Shown: piece by piece, positions 3,198 through 4,219 of the stretch
How positions within the stretch are numbered: the first letter of the stretch is position 1
Layout of the letters: each line of letters begins with the position of its first letter
Source: Leptotrichia hofstadii
GTDB taxonomy: Bacteria; Fusobacteriota; Fusobacteriia; Fusobacteriales; Leptotrichiaceae
Direction: 5' to 3'
Length of the DNA: 64,000 bases
Assembly: GCF_007990525.1 (NCBI RefSeq)
Contig: NZ_AP019823.1
Location: 310,001-374,000, forward strand
Translations under genes and position numbers: made by a program
Notes under the pieces: model-generated
Databases searched by the model: none
Seen by the model: the letters and a program-made list of their open reading frames with translations, nothing else
What the model was told of the DNA's origin: nothing

Positions 3198-3226
3198 TTG
3201 ACAATTATTAATAAATGATATATAAT
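3198..3226 (+). promoter_or_regulatory. Promoter of first FadA-like adhesin gene
   Basis: Perfect consensus: TTGACA (3198-3203), 17-base spacer, TATAAT (3221-3226), 45 bases before the ATG. Confidence 0.85.
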
Positions 3227-3270: not shown

Positions 3271-3678
3271 ATGAAAAAAGTTGGAATTTTATTTGTACTT
3301 TTGAGTGCTTTATCATTCTCAGCTGCTTCTGCAAAATCTTCAAAAACAGCATCAGCTCAAACAGTGGTAGGTAGATTTAATCAGCTTGAAGCAGAATATG
3401 AAAGATTAGTAAATATGGAAAATCAAGAGTATAACAAATTAAAAGCAAATGCTGACGCAGCAGCTAGCAAGCTAGCTGAAAAAGAAGCTCAAAAAGCTCA
3501 ATTGGAAGAAAGAATCTCAAAAGTTGAAGCAGCTTCTGAAACAAAAGCTTTTAAAGCGCAATACGCTGAATTGGCAAAACAATATAAAGCTGTAGCAAAA
3601 TCTTTAGATACAGAAATCAAATCTTTAAGAGCAACAGTTGAAAATTTCGCAGCTATTGAAGCATTAAAAGGATATTAA
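3271..3678 (+). CDS. FadA-like secreted adhesin, copy 1
   Basis: A 135-residue protein with a signal peptide ending about SAASA (residue 21), followed by an almost entirely helical, Ala/Lys/Glu-rich mature chain of about 110 residues. Length, signal and helix content match the FadA adhesin family of Fusobacterium, whose mature form is a helical hairpin that polymerises at the surface. Homology to FadA is inferred from this pattern and from the adjacent paralogue. It has a consensus promoter and an AGGAGG-type ribosome site, so strong expression is likely. Another small coiled-coil outer-membrane protein is the main alternative. Confidence 0.75.
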   Translation: MKKVGILFVLLSALSFSAASAKSSKTASAQTVVGRFNQLEAEYERLVNMENQEYNKLKANADAAASKLAEKEAQKAQLEERISKVEAASETKAFKAQYAELAKQYKAVAKSLDTEIKSLRATVENFAAIEALKGY

Positions 3679-3693
3679 TTTAAATCAAAATAA

Positions 3694-3752
3694 ATGAAAG
3701 GAGATACGAGAATAAATTTAAAAATAAATATCTAGTTCTCGTGGATAAAAAA
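3694..3752 (+). promoter_or_regulatory. Hairpin between ribosome site and start codon of adhesin copy 2
   Basis: AAAGGAGAT (3697-3705) is the only strong ribosome site but lies 46 bases before the ATG at 3752. Between them ACGAGAA (3706-3712) and TTCTCGT (3736-3742) form a 7-bp stem. If folded, the site abuts the stem and the ATG lies 9 bases beyond it, which is correct spacing. A 13-codon open frame (3694-3735) also starts at the site. AGATA (3702-3706) can alternatively pair with TATCT (3729-3733). Confidence 0.5.
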
Positions 3753-4159
3753 TGAAAAAGAAATTAGCAGTATTATTAGGAGTTTTAGTATTAAGCAGCG
3801 TTTCATTCGCAGCACCTGCAAAAGCAGCTAGACCAGCAGGAGGATCAATTGAAAACAGCTTAAACAACTTGGAAAATCAATTAAGCAGATTACAACAAAT
3901 GGAAGATGCAAAATTCAGAGAACAGGAAGCACAAGCAAATGCAGCTGTTCAAAGATTAAATAACTACACAGCAATGCAAGCAAAAATCGATCAAAGAATT
4001 GCTGAAATTGAAGCAAATGCAGAAACTAGCATCTTTGGAAAAGAATTTAAATCAAAAATTGCTGAATACAAAAACTTAAGAAATCAATTAGACAAAGAAA
4101 TAGCTAGAGAACAACAAGCTATCGATAACTATGAATTAATTAAATCTTTAAGACAGTAA
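3752..4159 (+). CDS. FadA-like secreted adhesin, copy 2
   Basis: A 135-residue paralogue of the preceding gene: a signal peptide with cleavage near SFAAPA (about residue 21), then a helical, Gln/Ala/Glu-rich chain with coiled-coil character. Same length and layout as copy 1, but clearly diverged in sequence. It is 73 bases downstream of copy 1 with no terminator between, so both are probably on one transcript. Its start is unusual: the strong ribosome site is separated from the ATG by a hairpin (separate entry), which could set the ratio of the two adhesins. Confidence 0.75.
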   Translation: MKKKLAVLLGVLVLSSVSFAAPAKAARPAGGSIENSLNNLENQLSRLQQMEDAKFREQEAQANAAVQRLNNYTAMQAKIDQRIAEIEANAETSIFGKEFKSKIAEYKNLRNQLDKEIAREQQAIDNYELIKSLRQ

Positions 4160-4180
4160 TCCTGACTTAATATAAAAAAG

Positions 4181-4219
4181 ATGCTTTTTCAAATTATTTG
4201 AAGAGGCATTTTTTTTTGT
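4181..4219 (+). terminator. Terminator of the adhesin pair
   Basis: Long stem ATGCTTTTTCAAA / TTTGAAGAGGCAT with two G-U pairs, then a run of nine T. Confidence 0.85.

Follow-up and report, generated by a model that had tools for sequence, protein, structure and literature searches.

Candidate ribosome-binding site split by a hairpin in the leader of a FadA-like adhesin gene of Leptotrichia, with similar layouts in other genes

How could the second of two tandem FadA-like adhesin genes of Leptotrichia hofstadii be translated when its Shine-Dalgarno (SD) sequence lies 46 nt from the start codon? This question is raised by the window, by which we mean the whole stretch of 64,000 nt analysed in our study, which belongs to a Leptotrichia genome of 2.6 Mb with a GC content of about 0.31 (GC from sampled DNA). 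A preliminary description of this DNA had proposed that a hairpin brings the SD and the start codon together, as is known for a few genes of phage T4. The genes concerned and the signals that surround them are the following:

3198..3226, forward strand: promoter of the probable fadA1-fadA2 operon (TTGACA, 17 nt, TATAAT; 12/12 consensus match)
3271..3678, forward strand: first FadA-like adhesin gene, fadA1 (ORF; PF09403, E 3.8e-23)
3752..4159, forward strand: second FadA-like adhesin gene, fadA2 (ORF; PF09403, E 5.9e-26; present in 13/13 members of the genus)
4174..4216, forward strand: hairpin resembling an intrinsic terminator, closing the probable operon (from the sequence)

Because both genes stand in tandem between the promoter at 3198-3226 and the terminator-like hairpin at 4174-4216, they probably constitute a single two-gene operon. 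The promoter is a perfect sigma-70-type sequence and is kept 5' of fadA1 in relatives, and the fadA2 product belongs to the FadA adhesin family, with a PF09403 score of 91.2 bits against a gathering cut-off of 28.5. The SD of fadA1 is the canonical AGGAGG, with no hairpin in its spacer. The tandem pair (window 3271-4159) is found 3' of the enolase gene throughout the genus; elsewhere in the genome, a third FadA-like paralogue (G000:C1:1010944-1011315) lies close 3' of the PTS IIA gene whose leader carries a spacer hairpin too.

Anatomy and predicted fold of the fadA2 leader

The leader of fadA2 comprises the following elements:

3697..3705, forward strand: Shine-Dalgarno sequence AAAGGAGAT, 46 nt 5' of the ATG at 3752; invariant in 10/10 hairpin-bearing species
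3705..3713, forward strand: 5' arm of the spacer hairpin, core ACGAGAA at 3706-3712 (from the fold)
3714..3734, forward strand: variable loop region, with an A+U-rich apical stem pairing 3716-3720 with 3725-3729
3735..3743, forward strand: 3' arm of the spacer hairpin, core TTCTCGT at 3736-3742 (from the fold and pair counts)
3743..3751, forward strand: residual spacer GGATAAAAA, 9 nt; 9-10 nt in all ten species
3694..3735, forward strand: 13-codon frame, present, not conserved and judged incidental

The hairpin-separated SD was described with exact coordinates in the preliminary description: the gap is 46 nt, and the pairing of ACGAGAA with TTCTCGT leaves 9 nt. This hairpin is the minimum-energy fold of the leader (-8.5 kcal/mol, nine pairs including two terminal wobbles). 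In the window species at 37 C, the predicted values are 0.88 for an unpaired SD, 0.69 for an unpaired ATG and 0.96 for a formed stem; the SD and the ATG are thus predicted outside the helix, and the exposure of the SD together with the formation of the stem fits a hairpin that acts as a structural spacer. One genome, G001, deviates, as a longer context predicts a different fold for its leader. A search with Rfam covariance models found no match to the fadA2 leader up to E = 1.

We consider it very likely that the fadA2 leader is a split, or accommodated, ribosome-binding site with the hairpin as structural spacer, as in T4 genes 25 and 38, and that this design has been reused in the lineage. 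The 30S subunit would pair with AAAGGAGAT, the hairpin right behind it would remain folded and be kept out of the mRNA path, and the effective GGAG-ATG separation would be about 11 nt rather than 48, which would give fadA2, the second gene of the operon, a translation site of its own. Other Leptotrichia genes and at least one neighbouring genus would use this design too, with unrelated stems and one recurring class. We infer that ribosomes employ the distal SD while the hairpin in between stays folded, and that expression would depend on this hairpin. It is important to consider that hairpins near start sites often repress translation, a fact that we counted against the structural-spacer reading.

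The leader had also been described as a possible switch, perhaps one that responds to temperature, in which an alternative pairing, AGATA/TATCT, hides the SD in competition with the open form. The letters of the window do allow that pairing, but it is weak (-2.1 kcal/mol, against -8.5 for the spacer hairpin) and unconserved, TATCT being present in only 2 of the 10 species, and in the window species the predicted exposure of the SD barely shifts between 25 C (0.84) and 50 C (0.92), a range over which the stem stays formed; an RNA switch or thermometer is accordingly so improbable that it can nearly be set aside. RNA thermometers and SD-sequestering hairpins likewise place a hairpin in the initiation region, but they hold the SD or the AUG inside the helix, unlike the fadA2 SD, which is predicted to be open and outside it. 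Two further elements of the leader had been pointed out. First, the 13-codon frame at 3694-3735 does exist; in other species it begins with ATG, GTG or ACG and has 6 to 22 codons, and we rejected a conserved upstream peptide since the start and the length vary between species. Second, GGA at 3743 had been named as a sequence that alone might support translation; it is unlikely to be the sole SD because it occurs there in only 2 of the 10 species. A proximal SD match, even of three bases, is absent near the ATG in 7 of the 10 hairpin-bearing species.

Conservation of the leader across the genus

Conservation in related genes, suggested as a check in the preliminary description, was found at the fadA2 orthologues of 10 of the 13 Leptotrichia genomes, which keep the SD AAAGGAGAT, the flush hairpin and 9-10 nt to the ATG, with GGAG-to-ATG distances of 48-62 nt across species. 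The loop varies in sequence and length, yet an A+U-rich apical stem is predicted in each of the ten species. When a hairpin was constrained to the flush position in dinucleotide shuffles of the same spacer, equally or more stable hairpins appeared in no more than 0.6% of the shuffles for all ten species. The 5' arm has 95.7% of its cells paired, and two pairs are altered on both sides. It is important to note that the covariation of the fadA2 basal stem alone is modest, its score being reached by 55 of 500 shuffles, and that both double changes sit in one species (G011, with basal stem ATGGGAA/TTCCCAT, where two pairs are exchanged with compensation); for this reason, the case rests on more than the fadA2 stem.

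The three remaining genomes, those of the deep-branching G005, G007 and G009, have no insert, and their fadA2 SD lies at an ordinary distance and overlaps the end of fadA1, as it likewise does in three neighbouring genera of the family (G014, G017 and G020-G022). Our model of the fadA2 leader (R1) found one match per genome in 10 genomes, the next being at E 0.036 or worse, and we rejected dispersed copies of the leader on these grounds. A scan of genome contigs with this leader returned only two Leptotrichia records, already among the genomes compared, and one weak unrelated match.

These comparisons also bear on the idea that the hairpin shields the 5' end of a processed fadA2 mRNA, or sets where that end lies, with effects on mRNA stability, and that translation would start from weak binding, independent of an SD, at the A-rich tail. 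Intercistronic processing is plausible given that a single strong promoter and a single terminator appear to serve both fadA1 and fadA2, and the residual tails are indeed A-rich. However, AAAGGAGAT never varies and directly abuts the stem, the residual gap stays constant, orthologues that lack the hairpin have a proximal SD, and the identical geometry recurs in many unrelated leaders, all of which make this alternative very unlikely.

The same layout in unrelated genes

We searched sampled parts of the genome of the window species for the succession SD, flush hairpin, 5-12 nt and ATG, and then read the leaders of the orthologues genus-wide. The hairpin-spaced layout was also found at unrelated genes, namely pcp, NAMPT/nadV, PTS IIA, adk and a CoA-disulfide-reductase-like gene, and it is mostly kept across the genus: it is present in 8 of 9 orthologue leaders of pcp, 8/8 of nadV, and 13/13 of both PTS IIA and an amino-acid ABC permease. 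The adk hairpin occurs in 10 of 13 genomes, the same ten species as that of fadA2; in G005, G007 and G009, adk has an ordinary AAAGGA site and no hairpin (L256; orthologues L248-L260). The N-termini of pcp (pyroglutamyl-peptidase), adk and the CoA-disulfide-reductase-like product are backed by family profiles from residue 1, and the start of nadV (nicotinamide phosphoribosyltransferase) by NAMPT_N at residues 3-96. The pcp gene of G004 keeps its stem, as TGCACGA/TCGTGCA, while the ATG inside the stem is lost, and that of G003 has no hairpin and an ordinary SD near the ATG.

In the PTS IIA leader, the whole stem is replaced between species. It is ACAGG/CCTGT in the window species, TGCGGGA/TCCTGCA in G006, and AAGACCAA/TTGGTCTT in G009 and G005, and its position is unchanged in all of them; one of these cases (G005) has a residual tail of 11 nt. 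Compensated pairs go from A-U to G-C in three rows and from G-C to A-U in one, and among alignable rows the covariation is 0.395 against 0.272 in shuffles, a value that 1 of 500 shuffles and none of the slid registers attained. The PTS IIA orthologues of most other genera present a purine-rich SD-like stretch near the ATG, with no hairpin there.

In order to evaluate frequency, we counted hairpins that are flush with the SD and stop 6-11 nt short of the ATG, in sampled DNA and in shuffles; we regard this positional test as the most informative one. The counts were 10 against 2.35 in G000, 2 against 0.3 in G007, 6 against 0.7 in G011 and 7 against 1.4 in G017; pooled over the sampled Leptotrichiaceae DNA they give 25 against 4.75, events that are not independent, as the three Leptotrichia samples (G000, G007 and G011) share orthologues. 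The other positional classes of the same genomes remained close to the shuffles, with 10 against 12.8 (flush, other tails), 13 against 9.9 (non-flush, 6-11 nt tail) and 25 against 25.9 (non-flush, other tails), and the positional peak stands at offset 0 with a tail of 9. A Fusobacteriaceae control of like composition (G053) gave 1 against 0.5. A stricter energy-ranked scan of 864 kb of the genome of the window species found 10 hairpins of -4 kcal/mol or lower (1.90 in shuffles) and 7 of -6 kcal/mol or lower (0.74 in shuffles). Of the 10 hairpins, at least four are false, as they stand within coding sequence or rely on an SD that evidently is not their own. The energy-ranked scans agree with the positional test; the scans used simple ORF calls, and several energy-ranked entries are plainly false. 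Scaled to genome size, the excess suggests about 20-35 hairpin-spaced genes per genome. Canonical GGAG-ATG gaps in the genome have a mode of 8 and lie mainly between 5 and 11 nt; in the hairpin-spaced leaders, the effective gap is about 9-12 nt.

Other spacer hairpins were observed in these samples. In G017, which belongs to another genus of the family, two genes named by eye from their N-terminal sequences as glycine-reductase-like and HAD-type hydrolase (L207, start 15233, and L206, start 14120, in minus-strand numbering) have much stronger spacer hairpins, of -21.2 and -15.8 kcal/mol. In two Leptotrichia species distant from each other, A+U-rich spacer hairpins occupy the same position before an RNase-H-like gene, which was likewise identified by eye (L131:15187, minus strand, G000; L156:12107, plus strand, G007).

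One class of stems recurs. The pattern GGAG-W-G(T/C)(A/G)TGA...TCAT(A/G)CA is common to the pcp, nadV, CoA-disulfide-reductase-like and NUDIX genes, with 30 matches in 12 of the 13 genomes and none in the reversed-pattern control:

L073:19913-19950, minus strand: stem-class site
L074:18304-18342, plus strand: stem-class site
G000:C1:1524604 and 1865592: stem-class sites
11 other genomes: 26 more stem-class sites

The stem GTATGAT/ATCATAC stands directly behind GGAG, and its 5' arm holds an ATG or GTG 3 nt after the SD. This class may recur because its leaders share a common descent, because it folds efficiently or because a factor binds it. A phage source of the leaders was rejected on scans of viral contigs, which gave no match of the fadA2 type and, for the GTATGAT class, three matches that are coding-like and have no ATG at the expected place.

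This recurrence and the largely conserved sequence of the fadA2 stem speak for another explanation, in which a repressor, an RNA-binding protein or a small ligand would bind the hairpin, whose position would serve regulation instead of spacing. Against this, the stems differ wholly between genes and, for PTS IIA, between species, so no single recognition sequence exists, and a flush 5' end followed by a tail of about 9 nt suits the needs of spacing and not those of protein binding; we therefore regard a regulatory target as unlikely. A broader proposal, in which a second mode of initiation with dozens of selected spacer hairpins extends over the Leptotrichiaceae and the GTATGAT/ATCATAC sites form a regulon that a trans-acting factor, or the ribosome itself, would recognise, is speculative, and we consider it rather unlikely.

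Precedents and significance

The T4 precedent invoked in the preliminary description is a direct experimental one, given by genes 25 and 38 (PMC3014915). In gene 38, an intervening structure cuts the SD-AUG distance from 22 to 5 nt, and in gene 25 a hairpin cuts it from 27 to 11 nt; both have mutational and probing support, with conservation limited to the closest T-even phages (PMC3014915), and stem mutations in gene 25 lower initiation (Nivinskas 1999; Malys and Nivinskas 2009, as reviewed in PMC3014915). The fadA2 leader resembles gene 25 in its too distant SD, intervening hairpin, intercistronic position and clade-limited conservation. It differs from that single phage gene in lying on a bacterial chromosome, in involving many genes per genome, and in its spacers of about 25-62 nt and larger hairpins. 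As in gene 38, a hairpin between the SD and the AUG would shorten the spacing, although gene 38 belongs to a phage, has a small hairpin and leaves a different residual spacing. Canonical SD sites of the genus (fadA1, AGGAGGCAAAATAATG) have the same SD sequence and a similar effective distance but no intervening hairpin.

A chromosomal precedent in bacteria for a hairpin-spaced SD was not found in the open-access literature, to which the search was confined. Because the anatomy and the clade-limited conservation match T4 and no chromosomal report was found, we classify the leader as an accommodated-type site, one that would work like those of T4 and would be new in being chromosomal, recurrent and lineage-wide. 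By comparison of genomes, our study establishes the anatomy of the layout, its conservation and covariation, its enrichment at one specific position and its exchange for ordinary SDs in relatives. Conservation, compensatory changes, a residual spacing that stays fixed and the recurrence of the layout in many genes give strong support to the central idea of the preliminary description, that the hairpin would bring the SD and the start codon together in the manner of T4.

Gene finders and expression models for bacteria usually expect an SD about 4-15 nt from the start codon and count a hairpin in that interval as harmful. If our reading is true, an entire lineage of bacteria has formed, time and again, functional sites whose spacer contains a folded hairpin, and what was a T4 curiosity would become a general rule for the tolerance of the 30S subunit to structure in the mRNA track. 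The start-codon annotation of these genomes would also gain. Orthologues with and without the hairpin, such as those of adk, would constitute a natural experiment on why such hairpins are gained, kept or lost.
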